Source: Gordonia bronchialis DSM 43247 (GTDB lineage: Bacteria > Actinomycetota > Actinomycetes > Mycobacteriales > Mycobacteriaceae). Taken from it: DNA of 64,000 nucleotides. The translations under genes and the position numbers were made by a program. The notes beneath the pieces were generated by a model. It was not told the DNA's origin. It saw only the letters and a list, made by a program, of their open reading frames with translations, and did no database searches. The stretch lies in contig NC_013441.1 of the NCBI RefSeq assembly GCF_000024785.1, positions 4,216,001-4,280,000 of the forward strand, in the 5' to 3' direction. This document shows positions 602-14,621 of this stretch, piece by piece (within the stretch, counting starts at the first letter, position 1; each line of letters starts with the position of its first letter).

Positions 602-1378
602 TCAGCCGAAGCGACCGGAGATGTAATCCTCGGTCTCGCGCTTGAGCGGGTTGGAGAACATGGTCTCCGTGTCGTTGATCTCGACGAGCTGCCCGGGCTG
701 GCCTATGCCCTCGAGATTGAAGAACGCGGTCTGGTCACTCACGCGCGCGGCCTGCTGCATGTTGTGGGTGACGATGACGATCGTGTATTCCTTCTTGAGC
801 TCGCCCATCAGGTCTTCGATGGCCAGCGTCGAGATCGGGTCGAGCGCCGAGCACGGCTCGTCCATCAACAGCACATCCGGCGACACCGCGATCGCCCGGG
901 CGATGCACAGGCGCTGTTGCTGGCCACCGGAGAGACCGCCGCCCGGCTTGTCGAGGCGGTCCTTGACCTCTTCCCACAGGTTGGCACCGCGGAGGCTGAG
1001 TTCGGCGGTCTCGTCGAGCTGCGCCTTGTTGCGCACGCCCTGCAGTTTGAGGCCGGCGACGACGTTGTCGCGGATCGACATCGTCGGGAACGGGTTGGGG
1101 CGCTGGAACACCATGCCGATGGTCGAGCGCACGCTGACCGGGTCGACGCCCTTGCCGTAGATGTCCTCGCCGTCGAGCAGCACGCTACCGGTGGCGTAGG
1201 CGCCGGGGGTGACCTCGTGCATGCGGTTGAGCGTGCGCAGCACCGTCGACTTACCGCAGCCCGACGGGCCGATGAAGGCGGTGATGCAGCGCGGCGGGAC
1301 CTCGAGGGTCACGTCCTTGACGGCGTGGAAGCTGCCGTAATGGATGTTCAGGTCTTTGATGTCGAGACGCTTGGCCAT
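602..1378 (-). CDS. pstB: Phosphate ABC transporter ATP-binding protein PstB
   Basis: This 258-residue ATPase powers high-affinity phosphate import with PstS, PstC and PstA. It shows the full ABC set in order: Walker [10 protein letters not shown] near residue 37, a Q-loop followed by RPNPFP typical of PstB, signature LSGGQQQR, Walker B VLLMDEP with SALDP after it, and the switch histidine in [11 protein letters not shown]. It is the last gene of pstSCAB, 63 bp after pstA, and converges on a small membrane-protein gene. Length and motifs match the family closely. Confidence 0.97.
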
Positions 1379-1441
1379 GGTGGGGTTCCGATCTGTGTTG
1401 TCCGCTCCCCGCGGCGTGGGCGGGGCCGGGCCGCGAAGGGG

Positions 1442-2395
1442 TCAGAGGGTCTTGGTGGGCGCGGGCGCGGAGGACTTCCGCAAGGTCTTGGAGATGTGGA
1501 CGGCGAACCCGACCAGCTTGGGCAGGAACTTCGCGCCGAAGTAGACGAGCGCGACGAGGATCACCAGCGTCAGTGCGGCCCCCCACACCTTGTCGAAGGC
1601 GCTGGGACCGTTGTTGTACTGCTGCACCATCATCAGCGGAAGCGACTGCTGGTTGCCTTCGAAGGGATTCCAGTTCATCGCACGGGTGGAGCCGACGAGG
1701 ATCAGCACCGGGGCCGACTCACCCATCACGCGCGCGATCGCGAGCATGACGCCGGTGATGATGCCCGACAATGCGGTCGGCAGAACCACCCGCGCGATGG
1801 TCTTCCACTTCGGGATGCCCAACGCATACGACGCCTCGCGCAGATCCTGCGGGACGATCTTCAGCATCTCCTCGGTGGCCCGAACCACCAGCGGAACCAT
1901 CAGCAGCACCAGGGCGATCGCGACGACGAACCCCGACCGGGGCAGACCCAGGGTGGTCCGCCAGACCGCGTAGACGAACAGCGCCGCGACGATCGACGGC
2001 ACGCCGGAGAGGATGTCGACCATGAAGGTGGTCGCCCTTCCCAGCCATGAGCGGCCGGTGCTGTATTCGACCAGGTAGATCGCCACCATGATGCCGAGCG
2101 GGATGGAGATCACCGCGGCCAGCGCGGTCTGGATGAGCGTGCCGACGATAGCGTTGAACGCGCCGCCCTTGATCTCCGGCGAACCCCACCAGTCGGGATC
2201 GAGGATGGGGCCGATGCCGTTCTGCACCAGGGTGATGACCAGCCAGAACAGCGGTACGAGCGCGATGACGAAGGCGGCGACGGCCAGTCCGCGCACGGCG
2301 ACGTCGGAGAACCGCCGGCGACCGGCGATCGGCTGAAAACCGGATGGCCGCTTCTTGACCGGCTCGACTGAGTGAGAATCGGTGATTGCGGTCAT
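1442..2395 (-). CDS. pstA: Phosphate ABC transporter permease PstA
   Basis: Integral membrane subunit of the Pst phosphate importer, 317 residues, with about six hydrophobic segments and the binding-protein-dependent permease EAA-type loop around ASYALGIPKWKTIARVVLP. The start is ATG 2395: it follows the pstC stop by one base and has a GGAAGGAAG ribosome-binding site inside the end of pstC. A 9-codon upstream extension is possible but lacks such a site. Translation is probably coupled to pstC. Confidence 0.95.
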   Translation of the reverse strand: MTAITDSHSVEPVKKRPSGFQPIAGRRRFSDVAVRGLAVAAFVIALVPLFWLVITLVQNGIGPILDPDWWGSPEIKGGAFNAIVGTLIQTALAAVISIPLGIMVAIYLVEYSTGRSWLGRATTFMVDILSGVPSIVAALFVYAVWRTTLGLPRSGFVVAIALVLLMVPLVVRATEEMLKIVPQDLREASYALGIPKWKTIARVVLPTALSGIITGVMLAIARVMGESAPVLILVGSTRAMNWNPFEGNQQSLPLMMVQQYNNGPSAFDKVWGAALTLVILVALVYFGAKFLPKLVGFAVHISKTLRKSSAPAPTKTL

Positions 2396-2396
2396 G

Positions 2397-3431
2397 TCAC
2401 TTCTTCCTTCCGACGACCGCACGGGCCGCGGCGTTGACGATGAAGGTCAGCACGAAGAGAGTGAGACCCGCGGAGATGTAGGCGCCGGTTTTGGCGGGTG
2501 AATCGAACTCCGCCGCATTGTTGGCGATCTTGGTCGCGAACGTCTCGCCGCTCTCCATCAGGTTGAAATTCATCGGGCCGACGGTCGAGATGATGAGCAG
2601 CAGCGCCATCGTCTCACCGAGCGCGCGACCGAGACCGAGCATCGCACCGCTGATGTAGCCGGAGAATCCGAACGGCATCACCGCGAGCTTGACCACCTCG
2701 AACTTGGTGGCACCCAACGCAAGTGCGGCCTCCCGATGCCCCTTCGGGGTCTGCATGAACACCTCGCGGGTGACCGCGGTGATGATCGGCAGGATCATCA
2801 CCGCCAGCACGATGCTCGCGGTCAGGAGCGTGCCGCCGGTGGACATGTTGGCCACCTGGGTCGGCTGCTGGAAGAACGGCAGGAATCCGAGGTTGCCGAC
2901 CAGCCATTCGTTGACCGGGACCAGCGCCGGACCGAGGACCAGGATGCCCCAGAGGCCGTAGACGATGGACGGCACCGCGGCGAGCAGGTCGACGGTGTAG
3001 GTGATGGGTCCGACGAGCCGCTTGGGTGCGTATTCGGTGAGGAAGATCGTGATGCCGAGGGCGATGGGCATCGCGAGCAACAGCGCGATGACCGAGACGA
3101 CGACCGTGGCGTAGAACAGCTGCGGGATGCCGAAGGTCAGTTCGGTACCCGAGGTCACCCACGGACCGGTGTAGGTGAAGAAGTTGGCGGTGTTCTTCGC
3201 CAGCGACGGGATCGCCTGGGCCAGAAGGAAGATGGCGATCAGGGCGATGACCAGCGTGATCAGGAACCCTGAGCCGACGGCAAGGGATCGGAAGACACGG
3301 TCGGCGATCTGGTGACGGGCCCCACCGTGCAGGCTGCTCGAACCCGGTTCGCCAGGCGCGGCGGGGGCACCGTCCGGCGTCTCACCGGGCGGGATGGTGC
3401 CGCTCTGTTCCTGGCCTGCTGTGGAGGTCAT
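2397..3431 (-). CDS. pstC: Phosphate ABC transporter permease PstC
   Basis: Second membrane subunit of the Pst importer, 344 residues. A hydrophilic Gly/Pro-rich N-terminus precedes about six transmembrane segments and a permease loop of the form HREAALALGATKFEVVKLAVMP. I chose ATG 3431, which has an AGAAGGA ribosome-binding site 3-9 bases upstream; a start 19 codons further up has none. It is separated from pstS by 141 bp holding a stable hairpin that probably sets the PstS to PstC ratio. Confidence 0.95.
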   Translation of the reverse strand: MTSTAGQEQSGTIPPGETPDGAPAAPGEPGSSSLHGGARHQIADRVFRSLAVGSGFLITLVIALIAIFLLAQAIPSLAKNTANFFTYTGPWVTSGTELTFGIPQLFYATVVVSVIALLLAMPIALGITIFLTEYAPKRLVGPITYTVDLLAAVPSIVYGLWGILVLGPALVPVNEWLVGNLGFLPFFQQPTQVANMSTGGTLLTASIVLAVMILPIITAVTREVFMQTPKGHREAALALGATKFEVVKLAVMPFGFSGYISGAMLGLGRALGETMALLLIISTVGPMNFNLMESGETFATKIANNAAEFDSPAKTGAYISAGLTLFVLTFIVNAAARAVVGRKK

Positions 3432-3515
3432 GCGTCCTTCTGTTTCGGCTCTGGTCACTTTGGCCACTTCCCGCGGTCTCGTGGACACGCCAATCTCGTT
3501 TCAGTGTGTCAACCA

Positions 3516-3557
3516 CGAGCGCGGAACCGCAAACGACTCCAGGCGGTTCCGCGCTCG
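3516..3557 (-). terminator. Intercistronic hairpin between pstS and pstC
   Basis: A perfect 15-bp stem (3516-3530 with 3543-3557) and a 12-nt loop lie just after the pstS stop. Placed between a binding-protein gene and its permeases, it is best read as a partial terminator or mRNA stabiliser that keeps pstS expression above pstCAB. Confidence 0.65.
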
Positions 3558-3572
3558 GGATCGAGGTGGCTA

Positions 3573-4649
3573 TCAGGCGTTGCCGCCGCTGCCGGCCAGC
3601 GCGTCGACGGTGCCCTGGACGGTGGTCTTGAAGCCCTGCGGGAGCGGCACGTAACCGATCTCGGCGAGGCCGTTCTGACCGTCGGACAGGATCTTGGTGA
3701 AGGCTTCCTTCAGCGTGGTGCTGGTGGCCTCATCCGAGTAGCCGGTCGAGCAGACGATCTCGTAGGTGGTCAGCAGCAGCGGGTAGGCACCCGGGGTCTT
3801 CGAGGCGAAGAGCGCGTCGATGTCGACCACGAGGTCCTTGCTGCCCGGCGTCTTGAACTTGACGGCGTCGAGCGCCTTGCCGGCCGAGTCGGCGTTCAGC
3901 TCAACCGCACCGGCGCCGAAATCGATTGCGGCGGTACCGAGCTGGTTCTCGGTGACGAAACCCCACTCGACGTAGGTGATGGAACCGGGGGTCTTCTTCA
4001 CGGTGTCGCCGACGCCGGTCGACTTGGCGGCCGCCGAGCCGCCCTTGCCCTTGAAGCTCTTGTCGTGCTCGTAGGGCCAGGCCTGCGGGGCCGAGGCCGA
4101 GAGGAACCGCTGGAAGTTGTCGGTGGTGCCCGACGAGTCGCTGCGGTGCACCGGGACGATGTTGGTCGACGGGAGGTTCACACCCGGGTTGAGTGCGGCG
4201 ATCTCCGGCGCGTTCCACTTGGTGATGCGCGAGTCGAAGATGCCGGCGAGGACCGTCGGGTTCAGCTTCAGGTTCTCCACGCCGCTCAGGTTGTAGGCGA
4301 TCGCGACGGGACCGGCCACCAGCGGGATGTGCCAGGCATCGTTGCCGTTGCAGCGCTGCTTGGCCGCGGCGGCCTCGTCGGGCTTGAGTGCCGAGTCGGA
4401 GCCGGCGAAGTCGACGTCACCGCTGTTGAACTTCTTGATGCCGTCGCCGGAGCCGCTGCCGGTGTAGTCGAGCACGATGTCGGTGTTGTCGGCGAGCAGG
4501 TTGGAGAAGTGCTCGATCGCCTTCTGCTGGGCGGTCGACCCCTCGCCGCTGATGGTCTTGGTTTCGTCGCTACCACAGGCCGTCATGACCAGGGCCAGGG
4601 CCGCCAGGCCCGAGACCGCAGCAAGGGCAGGTTTCCGATTCATGTTCAC
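3573..4649 (-). CDS. pstS: Phosphate-binding lipoprotein PstS
   Basis: Periplasmic-side, lipid-anchored phosphate receptor that delivers phosphate to PstC/PstA. The N-terminus has a short basic region, a hydrophobic core and a lipobox LVMTAC, so Cys near residue 25 should be acylated. The mature part has the family's phosphate-binding signatures: GEGST near the N-terminus, DYTGSGSGDG, FAGSD and the HRSDSSGTT loop. The start is ambiguous between GTG 4649, which has the better-spaced AAGG ribosome-binding site, and ATG 4643 two codons later. It heads the pstSCAB operon behind a PHO-box-like triple repeat. Confidence 0.96.
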   Translation of the reverse strand: MNMNRKPALAAVSGLAALALVMTACGSDETKTISGEGSTAQQKAIEHFSNLLADNTDIVLDYTGSGSGDGIKKFNSGDVDFAGSDSALKPDEAAAAKQRCNGNDAWHIPLVAGPVAIAYNLSGVENLKLNPTVLAGIFDSRITKWNAPEIAALNPGVNLPSTNIVPVHRSDSSGTTDNFQRFLSASAPQAWPYEHDKSFKGKGGSAAAKSTGVGDTVKKTPGSITYVEWGFVTENQLGTAAIDFGAGAVELNADSAGKALDAVKFKTPGSKDLVVDIDALFASKTPGAYPLLLTTYEIVCSTGYSDEATSTTLKEAFTKILSDGQNGLAEIGYVPLPQGFKTTVQGTVDALAGSGGNA

Positions 4650-4844: not shown

Positions 4845-4863
4845 TAAGGTAAGCCTTGGTATA
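4845..4863. promoter_or_regulatory. Probable IdeR/DtxR iron box upstream of the acyltransferase gene
   Basis: TAAGGTAAGCCTTGGTATA matches 15 of 19 positions of the iron-box consensus TWAGGTWAGSCTWACCTWA, with a perfect left half and centre. It ends 14 bp before ATG 4878, where a repressor would block transcription or initiation. Confidence 0.6.
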
Positions 4864-4877
4864 GCTGCGAAGCTCTC

Positions 4878-6149
4878 ATGACCACCATTCATCGCTCCCG
4901 CCAGACGACCGGCCCGGTGCGTGTCGCACCTGTCGACATCGCGCACAGCAGGCACCGGTCGGCCTTCGTCCTCGGTCCGGTCCCGATACCCGACGCCGAG
5001 GTGGCCACCGATCGCATCCGTCGGCTGGCCGCGGTCGGCCCCGCTGCGCGCATCGGGTTGCGACCGTCGACCGTCCACGACCGATGGATCTTCGATCCCG
5101 CCGGACTCGACGACGCCGTCTCGTCGGCGCCTCAGATCGACGATCACTCCGAGCTGCTGCGCATCGCGCGCGAGGCGCCCGGCGAGCAGTTGCGCGTCGT
5201 GCTCGCCGGTGACCATCTGGCCTTGGACTACGACCACGGGCTCGGGGACACCGCACTGCTCAACGTCATCGCCGAGGTCCTGATGGGCGTCCGCGATCCC
5301 GCCGATCCCGATCTGTGGCGCGGCCATCGCCTCGTGGTCCCTCGCCGGGGCCGTCGCCACCCTGGCCGCCGACCCGCGCCGGCTGATTGCGCTAGCCCGA
5401 TTCCATCGACGCCGGCCTCCCCCGCCGCCTGTCGCGGCCACGCGGCCGATCCCGCCGATCCCGCCGATCCGCCCGATAGTGCAGACCGCGCGGATCGCCC
5501 GCGACCACTGCGCCGCGCTACGCGCCGCACGCGACCGCAACCTGCCCGGGGTGAGCATGTTCGCGCTCACCACCGTGCGCTGGTCTCCGCGCTCGCCGAG
5601 GCCGGAATCACCCTCAACCCGATGGTCACGCTGCCCTTCGATGCCCGCGGCTACCTCCCGTCCGGGGTCACCACTCTCGCGAACTTCTCCGCGGGACTCG
5701 TCTTCGACGTGCGGCCCTCGACCTCGCCACGCGAACTGCAATCCGAGCTGTCCACGTCAGCGCGGATGGGCAGGCCGGCGGCGAACCTGCTTGTCACGAC
5801 CGTCAAAGCTCGCCGACGTCTCCGCGAAACCGGTACGCTCGATCACCCACCCGGCCTGCCGTGCGGCGATATCCGGGTCGCCGACCTGCTGCACTCGAGC
5901 GTCGGTGTCATCGGCGGGCCCGACAGCCGCTGGCAATTCACCGACGCCGAGCGCGCGACGGTCGTGGGCGCCGCCGACCCGCCATCACCGTCGGGCATCA
6001 CCGTCACCTCGGCCATGGTGGCCGGCGGCATCATCCTCTCGGCGACCCTGCGCGACGACGTCTTCGAGGCCGACGTGGTCGGCACTGCACTCGATCGTGT
6101 CGCGTTCCACGTCGAGCGGCTCGTCGGCGCTCGTCCGCAGTCTGCATGA
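4878..6149 (+). CDS. Condensation-fold (PapA-like) acyltransferase, two compensating frameshifts
   Basis: The open frame is 423 codons. Its N-terminal third has DYDHGLGDTALL near residue 116, which fits the position of the HHxxxDG motif in condensation/acyltransferase-fold enzymes, but the first His is replaced (DYDHGLGD). Such enzymes move acyl groups onto alcohol or amine acceptors. Between about 5300 and 5570 the frame encodes an odd Asp/Pro/Arg stretch, while the +1 frame gives normal protein containing IARDHCAALRAARDRNLPG. The original frame resumes at about 5575 (VSALAEAGITLNPMVTLPF). This looks like a one-base gain followed by a one-base loss, real or from sequencing. It stands alone behind an iron box and precedes the glycosyltransferase operon. 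The substrate is unknown. Confidence 0.5.
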   Translation: MTTIHRSRQTTGPVRVAPVDIAHSRHRSAFVLGPVPIPDAEVATDRIRRLAAVGPAARIGLRPSTVHDRWIFDPAGLDDAVSSAPQIDDHSELLRIAREAPGEQLRVVLAGDHLALDYDHGLGDTALLNVIAEVLMGVRDPADPDLWRGHRLVVPRRGRRHPGRRPAPADCASPIPSTPASPAACRGHAADPADPADPPDSADRADRPRPLRRATRRTRPQPARGEHVRAHHRALVSALAEAGITLNPMVTLPFDARGYLPSGVTTLANFSAGLVFDVRPSTSPRELQSELSTSARMGRPAANLLVTTVKARRRLRETGTLDHPPGLPCGDIRVADLLHSSVGVIGGPDSRWQFTDAERATVVGAADPPSPSGITVTSAMVAGGIILSATLRDDVFEADVVGTALDRVAFHVERLVGARPQSA

Positions 6150-6195
6150 TCATCACCGCGTGATCTGAACCACAAGCGCACCCGGCGTGCATACT

Positions 6196-6214
6196 TTGGT
6201 TAGCCTTTCCTAAT
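6196..6214. promoter_or_regulatory. IdeR/DtxR iron box upstream of the glycosyltransferase operon
   Basis: TTTGGTTAGCCTTTCCTAA matches 17 of 19 positions of the IdeR consensus TWAGGTWAGSCTWACCTWA. A further half-site, GGGTTAGGCT, follows at 6222-6231. The box is 72 bp upstream of the first start codon of the operon at 6286. Confidence 0.75.
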
Positions 6215-6285
6215 GTCACTGGGTTAGGCTGCAGGCTGCATACCCGCCCCGACACCGCTGTGTCACCGCCCGGAAGATTCGCCTG

Positions 6286-7255
6286 TTGTCCCCGACATCC
6301 CTTCCCGCGACCGCACATTCCGCGTCGACGAACCGCACCGCCGTGTCGCTGACCGTGGTCGTCTGCTGCTACACCGACCGGCGCCGGCCGCTGCTCGACC
6401 GCGCAATCGCCTCGGCCCGTACGCAACTCGGCAACACCGACCGACTGATCGTCGTCGTCGACCACAACCCGGATCTGCTCGCCGACCTCACCGCCACGTA
6501 CCGCAGCGCCCCCGAGGTCACCGTGGTGCCCAATGTCGGCGTCCAGGGGTTGTCCGACGCCCGCAACAGTGGAGTCGCCGAAGCCTCCGGTGACGTGGTG
6601 GTCTTCGTCGACGACGATGCCGCCCTGCGGCCCGACGCCCTCGAGGCCCTGCGACGCCGCTTCGTCGACGAGGACGTGAGCTGCGTCGGCGGCGCGGTCG
6701 AGGCGGAGTGGGCGGCCGGCCGCCCACCCGCCTGGTTCCCCGACGAGTTCGGCTGGGTGGTGGGCTGTGACTACCGCGGCATCGCCGACAACGGTGCCGA
6801 TATCCGCAATCCGATCGGGGCGGCAATGGCGGTGCGGCGCAACTACATCCACGAGATCGGGGGGTTCTCACCGCATCTCGGCCGGCGCGGAACCTTCCCG
6901 GCCGGCTGCGAGGAAACACTGATGGGCATCTCGCTACGCGAGCACCATCCGGGAACCCGGATCGTGCGTGATACCGATTTCGCAGTGCGGCACAGTGTTC
7001 CGTCCGACCGCGCCCGGCTTCGCTACTTTCTCCGCCGGTGCTATCAGGAAGGCCGCTCCAAGGCCGTGCTGTCGCGCCTGACGACCACCGGCAACGCACT
7101 GGCCAGCGAGCGCCTCTACACCACGCGGGTCCTGCCCAGCGGCGTCTGGCGGCATCGCCGGAAACGGCCGGGTCATCGCCCTGAGCGCCGGATTCCTCGT
7201 CACCTGCACCGGATTCGCGGCCGGACGACTCACGGTCGGAAAGGACCTCGCATGA
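6286..7255 (+). pseudogene. GT2 family glycosyltransferase, frameshifted near its C-terminus
   Basis: GT-A fold glycosyltransferase of family 2: a VSLTVVVCCYTDRR nucleotide-binding start, an SDARNSG segment, the DDD metal motif in VVFVDDDAAL and an acceptor-side CEETLMG. Proteins like this transfer sugars from nucleotide sugars on the cytosolic face. At about 7140 the reading frame fails. Restoring one G in TGGCGGCATC gives VWRGIAGNG and continues to a TGA at 7253-7255 that overlaps the next ATG (ATGA). As written, the frame instead runs on into the downstream membrane protein and makes a false 551-residue fusion. The start is a TTG (6286) with GGAAG upstream. First gene of the iron-boxed operon. 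Confidence 0.7.
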
Positions 7256-7941
7256 ACCGACTGGGCACCCTCATCGGTGCGCGTCAGACCGCACGCATCA
7301 GTGCCCTGACGTTGCTGGTGTACTTCGCCGCCGAGTGGGTCGTATCGGCCACCTGGCGTGGACATTACGGCTATCGTGATGTCACCGTCGGACCGCTCGG
7401 CGTCCCGTTCTGCGGTCCGAGCGGCACCTGGCCGTGCAGTGCGCTGTCACCGGTGATGAACGTCGCACTGGTCATCACCGGACTCGCGATCGCCGCGCTG
7501 GCCTGCGCGTGGATGGCACGGACCCGCACCGCCTGGCCGCATGCGCTCATGCTGGTGATCGCCGGTGCCGGCTTCGCCGCCGCGGGCATCATCACCGAGA
7601 AGATCGATTACCCACTGCACTCGCTCACCATGAACGTGTTCGGGGTGCTCGGTGCGCTCGGTTGCGTTCTGATCGGAGTGTCGTCGACGACGCGCCTGCA
7701 CTCGACGGTGCGTTTGGTCCTGACGGCCGGTGGAATCCTGTCGACCATCGGATACTTCTGCTACACAGCAGGTTTCACCGGCCTGCTCGGGGCGGGCGGA
7801 ACGCAACGCCTCATCATCTACCCGATCCTCATCGCCCTGCTGATCGCCGGCCTCAGCGGCGGCACCGCCTCCGACCCCGCGGCACCGGCGCCCGGGGACA
7901 CGTCGCGTGATTCACGTGACGAGCGCACCGTAGCGGCATGA
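7252..7941 (+). CDS. DUF998-type multi-pass membrane protein
   Basis: A 229-residue protein with about six hydrophobic helices; the ATG overlaps the stop of the frame-corrected glycosyltransferase (ATGA), and its own TGA overlaps the start of the GH16 gene. The FAAEWVVSATWRGHYGYRDVTVGPLG region and the membrane topology resemble DUF998 proteins, whose biochemical role is unknown. A soluble, charged tail of about 20 residues ends it. Its position inside a glycosyltransferase/hydrolase operon suggests work on an exported or membrane-bound glycoconjugate, but that is inference. Confidence 0.6.
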   Translation: MNRLGTLIGARQTARISALTLLVYFAAEWVVSATWRGHYGYRDVTVGPLGVPFCGPSGTWPCSALSPVMNVALVITGLAIAALACAWMARTRTAWPHALMLVIAGAGFAAAGIITEKIDYPLHSLTMNVFGVLGALGCVLIGVSSTTRLHSTVRLVLTAGGILSTIGYFCYTAGFTGLLGAGGTQRLIIYPILIALLIAGLSGGTASDPAAPAPGDTSRDSRDERTVAA

Positions 7942-8753
7942 ATCCGCGTTCGCTCCGCGACGCGCTACGCATCGCGGTGATCACCGCGATCCTCGCCGCG
8001 TCTTCGGCGTGCACCTTCTCCCCCGGCAGCGCCGCGGGAGATCCCTACGGGCCTGCCTTCGTCGACGAATTCGACGGCCCGGCACGGCCGGTCGGACGTC
8101 CGTGGGTTCACGACCGGGGTGCGGGGGGCTGGGGTAACAACGAAACCCAGCTCTACACTGACGATCTCGCCAACTCACGGATCGACGGGCAAGGTCATCT
8201 GGCGATCACCGCGCGGCGATCGGGGAACACCGTGACCTCGGCGCGGCTCACCACCCACCACACCATGTCAATCACCTACGGTCGGGTCAGTGCCCGGATC
8301 TCGATGCCCGCCGGGCAGGGACTGCACTCGGCGTTCTGGATGCTCGGCGACAACGTCGACGACGTCCAATGGCCCACATCCGGCGAGATCGACATCATCG
8401 AGACCATCAACCACGGCCGCGCGTACCACACGGGAATCCATCTGCCGCAGGCTTCTTCGGTGCGCGGCCAGACGCTGTCGGCGTCGGCGCCGTTCGGTAC
8501 GCCGCTGGCCGGACAGTTCCACGTGTACTGGGTGAACAAGACGCCGGGCCGGATCGAAACGGGCATCGACGACCGGACCCTGTTCGTCGCCACGCCGGCC
8601 GACCACGCCCCGGACGCGCGCTGGGTCTTCGATCAGCCGTTCCATCTCCTGCTCACACTCGCCGTCGGCGGCAACTGGCCGGGACCGACGGATTCGACCA
8701 CGCCGGCATCGGCGACCATGCTCATAGATTGGGTTCGGGTGATCAAACTGTGA
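7938..8753 (+). CDS. GH16 family glycoside hydrolase, predicted lipoprotein
   Basis: The 271-residue protein starts with a signal peptide and a lipobox-like ILAASSAC, so it is probably anchored outside the membrane. The GH16 catalytic signature is intact: GEIDIIETIN provides the ExDxxE nucleophile and acid/base pair at about residue 150. GH16 enzymes cleave or transglycosylate beta-1,3/1,4-glucans and related polymers. Overlaps of 4 bp with both neighbours (ATGA, then GTGA) tie it tightly to the glycosyltransferases, so its substrate may be the product of this operon or a wall glucan trimmed during export. Confidence 0.8.
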   Translation: MNPRSLRDALRIAVITAILAASSACTFSPGSAAGDPYGPAFVDEFDGPARPVGRPWVHDRGAGGWGNNETQLYTDDLANSRIDGQGHLAITARRSGNTVTSARLTTHHTMSITYGRVSARISMPAGQGLHSAFWMLGDNVDDVQWPTSGEIDIIETINHGRAYHTGIHLPQASSVRGQTLSASAPFGTPLAGQFHVYWVNKTPGRIETGIDDRTLFVATPADHAPDARWVFDQPFHLLLTLAVGGNWPGPTDSTTPASATMLIDWVRVIKL

Positions 8754-10030
8754 ACGCACCAACTGCTCCGCTGTCCCTCCCGCCGGCGATGCCGATCGAC
8801 GGCGTTCCCGAATGGACGGGCGCCACCTGGGTCGGGATGCTCGACGTCGGTGCTGTGGGGGCCGGCGCTGACCCGGAGGTCCTGTGTGCCCCCGAGCAGA
8901 TCGATGGCTATCGCCGGGCGCGGGTGCTGCTGCGTGCCGGTCTCACCCCGCTCGAGTTCGTCGACGTCGAGGTGGTCGACGGACTGATCCGGGTGCCCAT
9001 CCCGGAACTCTTAGTGCCACAAGATCATTCCGACGTCGAGCAACCGCCGATCTCGGTGGTCGTGTGCACCCACGAGCGTCCCGAGCAGCTCCGGGTGGCG
9101 CTCGCCTCACTCCGCACGGTCGACTACCCCGACTTCGAGGTGATCGTCGTCGACAACGCGCCGCAGGGACCGGCCACCGCCGACGTGGTCGAGGAGATCG
9201 ACGATCCGCGGTTCCGTCGCGTGGTGGAGCCGGTCGCCGGGTTGTCGTCGGCGCGCAACCGCGGACTCACCGCCGCCCGGCACCAGATCGTCGCCTTCAC
9301 CGACGATGACGTCGTCGCCGATCCCGGCTGGTTGCGCGGTCTCGCACGCGGATTCGCCCGCGACACCGACGTCGCCTGCGTCTGCGGCATGGTCCCGAGC
9401 GGCGAACTGCGCACCCGGCCCCAGGCGTACTTCGACTGGCGGGTGTCCTGGGCGGACACCATGAGCACCCGGGTGTACTCCCTCGACGACCCGCCGCATG
9501 ACTTGCCGCTCTTCCCCTTTCAGATCGGCGCCTACGGTACCGGAGCCAACTTCGCCGTCCGCCGCGAAACGATCCGGCGCCTCGGCGGCTTCGACGAGGC
9601 GTTGGGTGCGGGTACCCGAACGCGCGGGGGAGAGGACATCGACATGTTCTTCCGTGTCCTGACAGCCGGATACGCGCTGGCCAACGAGCCGTCGTCGATC
9701 ATCTGGCACCGCCATCGCAGCGACACCGACGCGCTGCTGGTGCAGGCACGCGGCTATGGCCTGGGCCTCGGCGCCCGGCTGACCAAGGTCGCGGTCAACC
9801 GACAGCATCGTCGGCTGGCGTTCTCGGTGCTGCGACGCCGTGCCCGCGCCGTCGCCCGGGCCAGTGCCGACTACGGCGCGATCACCAAGCCGCCCAGGGA
9901 GTTCGCCGAGGAGATGTCGTCGGCGGTCGGACGCATCGAGGTGTTCTCCGTGCTCGGTGGCCCGGTCGCGCTGGCGCGTGAGCGGATGCGCGGGCGCCGC
10001 GCCACCCCCCTACCCGGAGCATCCACATGA
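8750..10030 (+). CDS. GT2 family glycosyltransferase
   Basis: A 426-residue enzyme with an N-terminal extension of about 100 residues followed by a GT2 domain: ISVVVCTHERPEQL, VIVVDNAP, GLSSARNRGL, the metal motif FTDDDVVAD, and an acceptor-side GGEDIDMFFR. The start is GTG 8750, overlapping the GH16 stop as GTGA; a much longer upstream frame exists only as a shadow of GH16. Its stop overlaps the next ATG. It is the second and intact glycosyltransferase of the operon and presumably adds a sugar to a lipid or polymer intermediate; donor and acceptor are unknown. Confidence 0.75.
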   Translation: MNAPTAPLSLPPAMPIDGVPEWTGATWVGMLDVGAVGAGADPEVLCAPEQIDGYRRARVLLRAGLTPLEFVDVEVVDGLIRVPIPELLVPQDHSDVEQPPISVVVCTHERPEQLRVALASLRTVDYPDFEVIVVDNAPQGPATADVVEEIDDPRFRRVVEPVAGLSSARNRGLTAARHQIVAFTDDDVVADPGWLRGLARGFARDTDVACVCGMVPSGELRTRPQAYFDWRVSWADTMSTRVYSLDDPPHDLPLFPFQIGAYGTGANFAVRRETIRRLGGFDEALGAGTRTRGGEDIDMFFRVLTAGYALANEPSSIIWHRHRSDTDALLVQARGYGLGLGARLTKVAVNRQHRRLAFSVLRRRARAVARASADYGAITKPPREFAEEMSSAVGRIEVFSVLGGPVALARERMRGRRATPLPGAST

Positions 10031-11310
10031 GTGCGGTGATCGATGCCGCCGCCGACACGCATCCGGTCGCCACGCCGCCACGGTCGCGCGGGCCGGTACG
10101 CCGACAGCCCGTGTCGATGCCCGACGTCGCACTCGTCGCGGGACTCACCGGACTGGCCGCCACTGCCCCGCTGCCGGCCGTGCTCCGGGCACTTCTGGTG
10201 GGCGCCTTCGTGTTCGTCGGGCCCGGCGCCGCCTTCTGCGCGTGGGTTCGTCTACCGCGCGCGGCCCGAGCGGCCGCCGTTCCGACCCTGGGCATGTCGG
10301 CGATGACGCTCGTCTCGCTGACCGCGATGTGGTCCTATCGCTGGTCCACCACCGGCATCCTGGTGCTGTCCGCGCTGGCCGTGATCGCCGCGAGTCTCGG
10401 GCACTATCAGTGGCGATCGGGGTGGCCGAATCCACGCACGTGGGGACGAACCGCCTGGTCGGTGGTGCGCGACACCGTCGCCGCGCCCGGGATCAACGCG
10501 GCCACCCTACTCCTGTTCGCGGCGCTGATCTGCTGGGCGGCAGCGATTCCCGGCCTGCCCGGCGTCGACGCGAGCTTCTACGGTCTGTTGTTCAGTGGGC
10601 GCGCCATCCTGTTGATCCCGGCGATGGCGCTGACCACGGCCGCCTTCGTCGTGGCGACGGTGAGCGGGCGCACCGCGGCCGCCGCCGCAGCCGTCGGGGT
10701 CGCCATCGTGGTGGCCCGGGTGACCACCTGGCTGGGCACCGAGATCCCGGTCTACGACTGGACGTACAAGCATCTCGCCGTGGTCGACTACATCCTGGCC
10801 CATGACCTGATCGCGCCAAACGGCACCGACATCTACGCCCAATGGCCCGCGTTCTTCGTCACCGCCGCCTGGTTCTGCGAGGTCACCGGCCTGCCGGTGA
10901 CGACGCTGGCACATGTGTTCGCCCCGATCATCCACATCCTCATCGCCATCGTCGTCTACTCGGCCGCGCGCGTGATCGGGTTGTCGGCACGTGTCGCGGT
11001 GGCCGCCGCGTTCATCGTGGAGACCGTGAACTGGGTTGGGCAGGACTACTTCTCGCCGCAGGCGTGGTCGCTGGTGATCGCCTACGGCCTGATCACCCTG
11101 CTGCTGGCCTCACGTGGTGCGCCGCGCACCGCGGCCGTCGCCATCATCCCGTTCGCGGCGATCGTGCCGACCCATCAGCTCACGCCGTTCTGCTCGCGGT
11201 GTTCTGCTCACGGCGACCGCTCGTCGCCGTCGATCCCGAGCTGCCGGCGCAACGTCTCGACACGATCATCCGGCAACTCGAACTGCACGGCCGACGCGCG
11301 GGTCTGCTGA
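10027..11310 (+). pseudogene. GT-C-like polytopic membrane protein, truncated at a junction near 11185
   Basis: A cytosolic N-terminus is followed by eight or more hydrophobic helices. The stretch DWTYKHLAVVDYILAHDLIAPNG and later FSPQAWSLVIAYGLI resemble polytopic GT-C-type glycosyltransferases or glycan-assembly proteins of actinobacteria. After THQLTPF (about 11190) the membrane character stops abruptly and the frame runs 40 more codons through the adenylation-domain gene in the wrong frame. Family members are usually considerably longer, so the C-terminal part seems lost. The ATG overlaps the upstream glycosyltransferase stop. See the separate entry on the junction. Confidence 0.6.
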
Positions 11311-13553
11311 TCTCCGACGCCGAGCACCTGCGCGAGTCACACGCGGTGGCCGACACCCACGGACTCGAGGTCGTGACCATCACCGAGGGCATCGGCCTGA
11401 TCGACGGGACCGAGACACCCGCCACACCTTCGACTGTGTCGGTGGCACATCGTGTTCGGGAGAACGCGCCGGCGGACCCCGGTTTGGCGGTAACCAGTAT
11501 CCAGTTCACCTCGGGATCGACCGGCACCCCAAAAGGCGTTCTGCACCCGAACACGATGTGGCTGTGCGACGCGGAGTTGATCCGCGACGGGTTCGGGGCG
11601 CGTCCCGGGCGGCGAATCGCATTGTCTGCCGATCAGCTTCGGCGCGGGACTCAATGTGTTGATCGGCTCGCTGCTCGCCGGTGCGGATGTGCTCGCCGTC
11701 GATCCCCGACAACACGATCCGACGGCCGTCCTCGACAAACTCGCCGCCCACGACATCGACGTGGCATTCATGACGCCCGCACTGCTCCGCGCGCTCACCA
11801 CGGCACGGTCACACGACCGTGGCGCCGCTCATCGCGCGTGGTCGGTCATCGAGCGGATCATCACCACCGGCGAGCCTCTTACCGGTGAGATCGCCGCTGC
11901 GACACTCTCGCCCCGCAGGCCACCGTCACCAACTGGGTCGGGTCGTCGGAGACCTCGGCGATCAGCTATCACGACGTGCGCGCCGCGACGCCCCGGTCGC
12001 CGGGGAATCTGCCGGCCGGGATTCCCGCGCCGCACAAGATCATCACGATCGACGACGACGGACGGGTCCTGGTGTCGTCGCGTCACCTCGCTCTCGGCTA
12101 CCTCGACCCCGCCGCGGATGCCGGGCGCTTCATCCGCGACGCCGACGGTCTCACCACCTTCCGTACCGGTGATCGTGGCGCGTGGGAGGGCCCCGGTCTA
12201 ATTTTGCACGGCCGGATGGACGATGCGGTCAAGGTCCGCGGTTATCTGGTTGAGCCGTCGGAGATCCGCGAGGCCCTGCTGCGTTCCGGTGATCTCGCCG
12301 ACGCGGCGGTCATCACCCGCGTGTCCGATTCGGGTGCAACCGAACTCGTTGCCTATGTGGTGCCGGACGGACGGGTCCGCACCCCACCGACATCGGTGAT
12401 CCGCGCGCGCCTGCGTGCGAGTCTGCCCAGCTGGATGGTGCCCGCCCACATCGTGGAGTTGACCGCGCTCCCCCGTACCGGGCGAGGCAAACTCGACCGG
12501 GATGCGCTGCCCGACCCTCCGGCGCGCCGGCCGCAACCGCCCGTCGATGCCTTGGAGAGCGCGCTCGCCGAGGTGTGGGCGTCGGCGCTGCGACTGGATT
12601 CGGTGGGACGCAACGAGAATGTGTACGCGCTCGGCGCCGACTCGCTCACCGTCGCCCAGATCCTGGCCGACGTCACCCGGTCCACCGGTGTGCGCCTCAC
12701 CGAGGCGGAAGCGGCCGCCGCACCCACCGTCGCCGAGATGGCGGCCACCATCGAGAGCAGGAGGGTCCGCGCACAGCGCGCGCGCCTGTCCCCGACAACG
12801 GTAAGACTCCATGATGGGGCGAAACTCAGTGGTGGCGAGGGTGTTCCGGTGTTCTGCTTCACCGGGGCCGGCGCCTCGGCGTTGACCTTTGTGCCCTTTG
12901 CCCACCAGATGGCGGGCACCGCGGGCATCGGCGCCATCCACGCGTTCACTCCCAACGGGCTGGACAATCGCGGACTCCCCGACTGGACGGTGGCCGCGGC
13001 CGCCCGCCGTCATCTGCGCGATCTGCGACGCATCGCGCCGAACGGCCCGTACGTCCTCGTCGGGCATTCACTCGGTGGTTTCATCGCCCTCGAAGCCGCC
13101 CGCCGGCTGCGTGCCGACGGCGGCGACGTCCGGCTCGTCGTCGCGGTGGACACCTTTGTGCCCGCACGCATCCGAGGGGAGGTGCGCCGCACCGACCCGG
13201 CGGTCACCATGACCCCGGAACGCCCGCCGCTGCCCCGACGCGAACTCTGGCGACGACGCCTGCTGGTCCCGTTCGCCGGTCTCTACCGCTCACCCGCCCG
13301 GGCCGCGCAGGCCATGGAGGAGATCGGTGTGCGGGTGGGCCGGTTGCACCGGCCGAAGCCTTACGACGGTCCAGTGCTCCTCGTGCAGGGCAGTGACAAC
13401 GTCGACGACCCCCACTTCTGGGAGACCACCATCGCCCGAGGCGAATTCACCGTCGCCCGAGTCGATTCCGATCACGTCTCCATCGTGCGCGAACCCCACA
13501 TCAACGAGGTGGTATCCCTCATCCGCGACCACCTGCATCCACTCGCCGGTTGA
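11186..13553 (+). pseudogene. NRPS-like adenylation-carrier-thioesterase protein, N-terminus missing, two frameshifts
   Basis: Domains in order: an adenylation (AMP-ligase) domain from about 11186 to 12510, with core motif TSGSTGTPKGV and a C-terminal subdomain GRMDDAVKVRGYLVEP ending PRTGRGKLDRDAL; a carrier domain with the phosphopantetheine serine in GADSLTVAQIL near 12640; and a thioesterase with GHSLGG near 13065 and an FCFTGAG oxyanion region. It would activate an amino or carboxylic acid, load it on the carrier and release it. The first 80-100 residues are absent. The frame shifts +1 near 11620 (LPISFGAGLN resumes) and back near 11900 (APQATVTNWVGSSETS resumes). An intact frame from 11976 still covers the end of the A domain, the carrier and the thioesterase. 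Confidence 0.65.
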
Positions 13554-13601: not shown

Positions 13602-14621
13602 TCACGGCCGGACGGTCGCCACCACACCCCGGTGGTCGGAGCCGGGAAGATCGACGGCGACGAAGCTCGTCGGGACCGGGCCCGCGCGGGTGAGCACACG
13701 ATCGAGGGCGAGCATCGGGGAAATGGTCCGGTCGGCCGGATAGGTCGCGACGATGCCGGTGCCGAGATGCTCTGCGGCATCGGTGAGTTGCGGAGATCCC
13801 GGACTCGACGATCCGGACAGCAGATCACGGAACCTGCGGTGATCGTAGGTCGAATTGAAATCGGCACCGATGATCAGCGGCAATTGTTCGGCGCGTAGAG
13901 CACCGGCGAGACGCCGAAGTTCCAGATCCCATTTCCAGGCGGGCTCCGGGTACGGCGGGATCGGGTGCAGGACGTAGAGCGCGCGACGTCCCACACCCGG
14001 AACATCGGCCACCGCACGCAGATTCGCATGCTCCATCCCGGCGAGCGCGTGCCGATCCGTCAGCGGGAAACGCGAATAGATGCCGGCGCCGCTGCCACCG
14101 TCCCGCGGATCGAGGTAGACGAACGGCAGCCGGGCACGCAGACCTGAGCGGTCGATCCGGCCGACGGCGTCCGGGGTCAGTTCGACGACGGTCAGCACAT
14201 CGATCCGGCGGTCGGCGACCGTGCGGGCCAGATCGGCGGTATCCGCCTGTCCGAGATAGATGTTGGCCTGCATGACACGTAGATCGGAATCGGCCACCAC
14301 CTCGTCGGCTCCCACGAACAGGGGGAGCTGGGTGGCGATCCCCGCCACGACGACGACCAGTGCGACCGCTGCCGAATACACTCGCCGCGCGGCGCCCAGG
14401 ACGACCAGCCCGACCATCGCGCCCAGAACGAACACCGGGGTGAACGAAGCCAGCCGCGACAGCGTCGAGCTGACCAGCCCCGAGACATGCGCTACGACAC
14501 CGAGTATCCCGGCACCCACCAGTCCCCAGCCGCCGAGCATCACCACGGTCCGCACCACCCGGTGACCATCCCAGCGTCGCGCGGCGCGTGCGGTCCCCGC
14601 ACGAACAGTGTTGTCGGACAA
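13602..14621 (-). CDS. Endonuclease/exonuclease/phosphatase family protein with membrane anchor
   Basis: About 340 residues: an N-terminal portion with three hydrophobic helices, then an EEP domain with QANIYLG, a catalytic VVELTPD, GADFNSTYDHRRF and the terminal GSDHRGVVATV histidine motif. EEP enzymes hydrolyse phosphodiesters in nucleic acids or phospholipids using a divalent metal; with this membrane anchor the active domain probably faces outside. The start is uncertain: I use TTG 14621, four bases after the mshD stop; GTG codons near the first helix are alternatives. An uninterrupted upstream frame through mshD is a shadow. Confidence 0.75.
   Translation of the reverse strand: MSDNTVRAGTARAARRWDGHRVVRTVVMLGGWGLVGAGILGVVAHVSGLVSSTLSRLASFTPVFVLGAMVGLVVLGAARRVYSAAVALVVVVAGIATQLPLFVGADEVVADSDLRVMQANIYLGQADTADLARTVADRRIDVLTVVELTPDAVGRIDRSGLRARLPFVYLDPRDGGSGAGIYSRFPLTDRHALAGMEHANLRAVADVPGVGRRALYVLHPIPPYPEPAWKWDLELRRLAGALRAEQLPLIIGADFNSTYDHRRFRDLLSGSSSPGSPQLTDAAEHLGTGIVATYPADRTISPMLALDRVLTRAGPVPTSFVAVDLPGSDHRGVVATVRP

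Follow-up and report, generated by a model that had tools for sequence, protein, structure and literature searches.

A degraded, iron-box-bearing glycosyltransferase and adenylation–thioesterase locus in Gordonia bronchialis

Gene content and breakage of the window cluster

A 64,000-nucleotide stretch of the Gordonia bronchialis DSM 43247 genome (contig NC_013441.1, positions 4,216,001 to 4,280,000; hereafter the window, with positions counted from its first letter) holds a plus-strand gene cluster in which two matches to the binding site of the regulator IdeR (that is, IdeR boxes) accompany genes for glycosyltransferases, a glycoside hydrolase and the remains of a protein with adenylation (A), carrier (T) and thioesterase (TE) domains. 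The cluster opens with a broken gene for a condensation-fold acyltransferase-like protein (4878–6149), whose fold is taken from a relative's model, and continues with a first GT2 enzyme (GT2a, 6286–7255; PF00535, 1.6e-19), a DUF998 membrane protein (7252–7941; PF06197, 30.5 bits with a cut-off of 30; 51–58% identity in six Gordonia loci), a GH16 glycoside hydrolase (7938–8753; PF00722, 1.9e-13) with an N terminus that looks by eye like a lipoprotein signal, and a second GT2 enzyme (GT2b, 8750–10030; PF00535, 6.3e-25; 61–70% identity in ten Gordonia loci; GTG start inferred from a GTGA overlap). These are followed by the first 388 residues of a GT-C glycosyltransferase (10027–11190; 709 residues in the best relative), the frame of which continues to 11310 without homology, and then by an adenylation-domain remnant (11191–11910) and the end of that domain with the carrier and thioesterase domains (11907–13553; PF13193, PF00550 and PF00975; 59–61% identity to the relatives in genomes G038, G055 and G056). 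Overlaps of 4 bp at 7252–7255 (ATGA), 7938–7941, 8750–8753 and 10027–10030 link GT2a, DUF998, GH16, GT2b and GT-C.

Most gene identities proposed in an earlier note on this DNA (both GT2 enzymes, DUF998, GH16 and the A, T and TE pieces) were confirmed by Pfam, and the 4-bp overlaps were found as described; the condensation and GT-C folds were reached through the models of relatives, as the window proteins themselves gave no Pfam match at E ≤ 0.01. The A-T-TE protein named in the note is a remnant: its A domain is truncated at ~11190 and frame-shifted, as the note had missed.

The breakage emerged from an ungapped comparison with 159 proteins with matches, drawn from seven loci of relatives; a gapped version of this test was dropped, as its alignments bridged the frame changes that the ungapped one revealed. 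In the condensation-fold gene, the match to relatives passes from frame 3 to frame 1 and back to frame 3, with changes at ~5330–5341 and ~5577 that place ~78 codons out of frame. The A domain changes frame at ~11624 and ~11905. In GT2a, a frame change at ~7161–7169, through which the open frame fuses this gene to DUF998, is the weakest of these cases, with the C-terminal end matching frame 2 over only 19–22 residues (22–37 bits) and the ATGA overlap as its basis. Finally, homology to GT-C extends no further than residue 388 and gives way directly to homology to the A domain, at ~11190, which defines an approximate deletion junction (11188–11194, no strand). The interval deleted here holds, in relatives of the type of G040, a third GT2 (GT2c), a flippase and, in one class, aryl-synthesis genes (including a synthase for 3-amino-4-hydroxybenzoate, AHBA); none of these genes turned up in the window's first 30 kb. 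Genome-wide, GT-C has a single match, as has A-T-TE at E ≤ 1e-60, while AHBA synthase has none at E ≤ 1e-20. Judged against their relatives, four genes of the cluster (condensation-fold, GT2a, GT-C and A-T-TE) are broken, and the locus is probably inactive in the G. bronchialis genome. The odd gene set of the cluster would be explained by its being a remnant.

It could instead be supposed that the cluster is intact and that the frame changes and the junction are errors of sequencing or assembly, which we consider improbable. The changes in the condensation-fold gene and the A domain do come in pairs that restore the frame, and the portions outside these pairs are well conserved. However, the genome is assembled in two contigs and is 100% complete; five frame changes and the junction crowd into ~8 kb, with one unexplained case elsewhere (33706–33659); and neither an AHBA synthase nor a second A-T-TE was found elsewhere in the genome to account for the genes missing at the junction (the flippase and GT2c were not searched for genome-wide). 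We retain genuine breakage as the likelier account. As for second-frame matches outside the cluster, those at c13, c25, c26, c43, c49 and c99 were set aside as upstream, overlapping or antisense; at c101 (window 33706–33659), the match to a G056 protein departs from its frame for a short stretch and then resumes it, which may reflect a double frame change in either genome, and this case could not be set aside.

IdeR boxes and their association with the A-T-TE gene

Sites were scored as matches out of 19 to a degenerate 19-bp consensus, TWAGGTWAGSCTWACCTWA. Box 1 (TAAGGTAAGCCTTGGTATA, 4845–4863, no strand; 15/19) lies 15 bp upstream of the condensation-fold gene and is divergent from pstS, and box 2 (TTTGGTTAGCCTTTCCTAA, 6195–6213, no strand; 17/19) lies upstream of GT2a. 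Both scores and the position of box 1 agree with the earlier note, which had placed box 2 one base too far, at 6196–6214. The IdeR box consensus is given as TTAGGTTAGSCTAACCTAA in the literature (PMC8464063). Under a strict consensus, which we also applied (TTAGGTTAGGCTAACCTAA), box 2 alone passes at ≤3 mismatches, where none is expected, and box 1 fits poorly in its right half; the whole genome has eight sites with ≤3 mismatches, box 2 included, and two of the others precede the genes for an AMP-binding enzyme and a periplasmic binding protein. Among 60 first-order Markov randomizations of the window, none had a site of at least 15/19, and second-order versions of other loci gave 5 such sites in 9.28 Mb (0.011 per 20 kb). 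The two window boxes are real as sequence matches, and the genome encodes two DtxR-family regulators above the PF01325 cut-off. The pst phosphate operon (window 602–4649), divergent from the cluster, shares with it the intergenic region in which box 1 lies, and the same divergent arrangement occurs in all 10 close Gordonia loci.

The earlier note had named a lack of box conservation in orthologous loci as an outcome that would refute it; instead, conservation was borne out, with a box (at least 15/19, as throughout this tabulation) in 10/10 orthologous Gordonia loci and in 18/20 Mycobacterium loci with an A-T-TE gene. A counterpart of box 1 (15–16/19) precedes the condensation-fold gene in seven of the ten Gordonia loci and a box precedes GT2a in six. 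Across 74 loci, the window included, a box is present in 26/28 loci with A-T-TE versus 6/46 without it, counts that stem from related loci, hence not independent events, and for most non-Gordonia core loci from stretches of ≤20 kb. Within Mycobacterium alone, the figures are 18/20 versus 1/7 (the one being G667). The six boxed loci without A-T-TE comprise three cut by contig ends (G027, G021 and G667), with their A-T-TE on other contigs; G017, which has aryl genes and an A-T-TE ~1 Mb away, preceded by a 14/19 site; and G219 and G321, each with a single site away from the core genes. In the A-T-TE loci, 53/56 boxes lie between 120 bp inside and 400 bp upstream of the predicted start of a marker gene, and both Gordonia and Mycobacterium repeatedly have boxes ahead of the GT2a, PobA-like and aldolase genes. 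Rhodococcus loci that carry an amino acid:[carrier protein] ligase have no box within the cluster. The boxes therefore track the A-T-TE gene rather than the sugar genes, and putative regulation of the locus by IdeR is well supported at the sequence level.

Several outlying arrangements were also seen. In G017 (Gordonia insulae; L215:7418-11654), the distant protein is a 1362-residue flippase–A-T-TE fusion, with the 14/19 site ~130 bp before its called start. Three Mycobacterium genomes (G272, G587 and G597; L212:8880-11539, L213 and L214) hold the core without boxes and an A-T-TE elsewhere, with a 15/19 site ≤400 bp upstream of the match; in G272 and G597 (L212 and L214) this A-T-TE may be a paralogue, because it adjoins a gene resembling those for polyketide synthases (2089 residues). 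A further protein of ~520–580 residues (L133:3473-5041) occurs in several Mycobacterium loci, and similar proteins in oriented G629 (1395–3140) and G457 (2424–4079) are preceded by a 16/19 box.

Intact relatives, folds and adenylation substrate

Searching with the GT-C protein returned matches at E ≤ 0.001 in 25 of 59 genomes of the same genus (its own included), 10 of them besides its own at E < 1e-100, and the locus adjoins pstS in all 10 of the 58 other Gordonia genomes that hold it; in nine of these ten loci the GT-C match is free of internal stops. At the family level, 61/401 genomes matched at E ≤ 1e-30, as did 45/396 genomes of the genus of G402 at E ≤ 1e-60. Fifteen loci could be named (one from Gordonia sputi, seven from Mycobacterium or Mycolicibacterium and seven from Rhodococcus), and Mycolicibacterium holds the same system. 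Gordonia and Mycobacterium loci carry, in addition, the third GT2, a flippase-like protein and the A-T-TE protein, the last two being separate in G040 (477 and 887 residues) and fused in Mycolicibacterium neoaurum (1290 residues) and G038 (1443 residues); 73 of the best 120 of 163 homologues cover at least 89% of the fused protein. The ~550-residue N terminus of what had looked like a non-ribosomal peptide synthetase (NRPS) in relatives was considered as a condensation domain and rejected, as Pfam recognizes only AMP-binding onward and the N terminus is Polysacc_synt-like; by Pfam, the intact protein is flippase-like plus A-T-TE, with no condensation domain and no C-A-T module.

One class of loci adds a PobA-like hydroxylase, a DhnA-type aldolase and an AHBA-synthase-like enzyme. 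The PobA-like protein matches p-hydroxybenzoate hydroxylase chains at 8e-109, and broad subfamily models of NCBIfam pass their cut-offs for the aryl genes. The AHBA synthase and aldolase are paired in five Gordonia and four Mycobacterium core loci; among the 28 A-T-TE genomes searched whole, AHBA synthase occurs in seven and not in G000, G038, G055, G056 or G021. In many Rhodococcus loci an amino acid:[carrier protein] ligase (NF005479, 437 bits, cut-off 357) replaces the A-T-TE protein. The same sugar core is joined at L104:744-1673 and other Rhodococcus loci by this ligase, an acyl-CoA-dehydrogenase-like protein and a two-domain hydrolase, with no box in the cluster.

The folds of the two proteins without Pfam matches were read from relatives. 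A model of the M. neoaurum condensation-fold protein (predicted local distance difference test score, pLDDT, 88.2) gave 306 Foldseek matches at E ≤ 0.001 with a query template-modelling (TM) score of up to 0.66, the 50 listed being mostly condensation-type domains, and the HG.G columns of the HxxxD/E motif are invariant. The G. insulae GT-C model (pLDDT 90.6) matched OST, AftA, ArnT and PglB at E ≤ 0.001 (13 matches). The modelled relatives thus show a condensation fold and a GT-C membrane fold, the latter truncated in the window. Searched by sequence against the PDB, the flippase part had no match, nor did the GT-C and condensation-fold parts.

One conceivable product of such genes is a soluble, glycosylated aryl metallophore (that is, a small secreted molecule with sugar as decoration), which we rate as unlikely. 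The A, T and TE domains resemble the siderophore NRPSs EntF and MxcG in family scans, albeit below cut-off, and the IdeR boxes would suit such a product; however, a single A-T-TE without a condensation domain stands against it, and the flippase-like part, the GT-C fold and GH16 point to a lipid-linked glycan.

In the A domain, taking the aspartate that binds the α-amino group to be Asp235 (GrsA numbering, our motif mapping), the aligned position is Gly or Ala in 27/27 relatives and Gly in the window. The window code had to be read piecewise, as the automatic code was wrong owing to the frame changes. It is GANMITWAI, which falls in the AHBA class (GAN[MLSA][IV]TW[AS][IL], eight loci); Gordonia loci without AHBA genes have GGNLITWAI or AANLITWAI (three), and 13/16 Mycobacterium loci without them have AANCVTWGI. 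The product, which the earlier note had suggested to be possibly aminoacylated, is less likely to be so than to be arylated, given the Gly or Ala at this position and the AHBA-like genes in loci of the same class. No single substrate is claimed for all A-T-TE proteins, with AHBA synthase in 7/28 genomes and a different code in 13/16 Mycobacterium loci. On the minus strand beyond the A-T-TE remnant, the window carries an Exo_endo_phos-family membrane protein gene (13602–14570, upper limit approximate; PF03372), a neighbour common to AHBA-type loci that is present in the G040, G050, G017, G053 and G001 loci and absent from those of G038, G055 and G056. Together with its code, the presence of DUF998, the Exo_endo_phos gene and box 2, which AHBA-type loci also have and G038, G055 and G056 lack, points to the window copy being a decayed AHBA-type locus.

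A proposed role in iron starvation

We favour, with somewhat better than even confidence, the view that the intact locus, repressed by IdeR, attaches an aryl acid to a lipid-linked glycan, perhaps to form a tethered chelator, and that the window copy is a degraded example of it. In intact relatives, iron-loaded IdeR on the boxes would keep the operons off until iron is low. Once expressed, the GT2 enzymes would assemble an oligosaccharide on lipid, the third GT2 could supply the GT-C enzyme with a polyprenyl-phosphate sugar, the flippase-like part would carry the product across the membrane and GH16 would trim the glycan. In one class, the aldolase and the AHBA-synthase-like enzyme would make 3-amino-4-hydroxybenzoate, which the PobA-like hydroxylase could, on chemical grounds, turn into an aminocatechol. 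An aryl acid would be loaded by the A-T-TE protein onto the carrier domain, from which either the condensation-fold enzyme or the thioesterase would transfer it to the glycan. This scheme is drawn from protein families and gene order. The copy in the window would derive from the AHBA class and have been disabled by the deletion and the frame changes.

Several observations weigh against this proposal. AHBA synthase occurs in only 7/28 genomes, so that most A-T-TE proteins need another substrate, and the specific models fall below cut-off for the aryl genes (BagC/FevH 424 bits, cut-off 750; BagB/FevI 222, cut-off 500; TIGR02360 446, cut-off 539), as does Polysacc_synt for the flippase-like part (2.9e-5 and 8.6e-6). 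The GT-C fold matches are modest (query TM 0.35–0.43 for the 13 matches). Two loci (G307 and G452) have A-T-TE with no box of at least 15/19. In G. sputi (G053), the GT-C match (L043:10581-12889) contains one TGA, and this locus may be damaged too.

A rival account, to which we give a modest minority chance, holds that a polysaccharide of the surface or capsule is remodelled under iron starvation to serve adhesion or biofilm, and that its acyl group is unrelated to iron binding. Sugar genes do predominate, no siderophore-uptake gene was noticed among the annotated or listed genes (no systematic search was made) and AHBA synthase is absent in 21/28 A-T-TE genomes tested. Yet in Rhodococcus and most other loci where A-T-TE is missing, no box accompanies the sugar core, and boxes also precede the PobA-like and aldolase genes. 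Within the arylated-glycan reading that we prefer, a more specific version is tentative and a little less probable still: that the product of intact relatives is a siderophore in polymeric or cell-tethered form. It would be a glycan under IdeR control whose 3-amino-4,5-dihydroxybenzoyl (aminocatechol) groups, present in the AHBA class, are loaded by a flippase–A-T-TE protein that couples aryl activation to glycan export. The earlier note's acylated, glycosylated surface product or non-classical metallophore stands as the best general reading of such loci; for this genome the functional claim fails because the copy is broken in four genes.

A literature search confined to open-access text gave no description of a system with this gene set, in agreement with the earlier note. 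The closest known systems each share a part of it. The 3,4-AHBA pathways of bagremycin, ferroverdin and grixazone, named in part from NCBIfam, resemble one class of intact loci, in which a DhnA-type aldolase gene adjoins that of an AHBA-synthase-like enzyme similar to type II dehydroquinate synthase; here, by contrast, the pair lies beside a sugar cluster with IdeR boxes, scores below cut-off in the specific models and is absent from the window genome. Siderophore loci under IdeR or DtxR also have 19-bp boxes before several operons, but here there is no modular NRPS assembly line, glycan genes predominate and no uptake gene was noticed, in the absence of a systematic search. Wzx-type polysaccharide export loci resemble the present one in their GT2 enzymes, flippase-like protein, glycoside hydrolase and GT-C fold; they differ in that the flippase here is often fused to A-T-TE, and no Wzy or co-polymerase was identified, none having been searched for. 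In the D-alanylation of teichoic acids by Dlt, a surface polymer is decorated with an acid that has been activated by an adenylating enzyme and a carrier, with DltB as the MBOAT protein. The present locus would share this principle, but with a condensation-fold transferase instead of DltB, a carrier that shares its chain with A and TE, and an A domain without the α-amino aspartate. The amino acid:[carrier protein] ligases, one of which is carried by the Rhodococcus version of the same sugar core, take the place of A-T-TE in clusters without an iron box; to our knowledge, their role is open.

If the arylated-glycan reading holds, some actinobacteria would meet iron starvation by altering the chemistry of a surface polymer, and not only by means of a diffusible siderophore. 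The occurrence of the same sugar core either with A-T-TE and boxes or with an amino acid:[carrier protein] ligase and no boxes would further provide a testable setting for these ligases.

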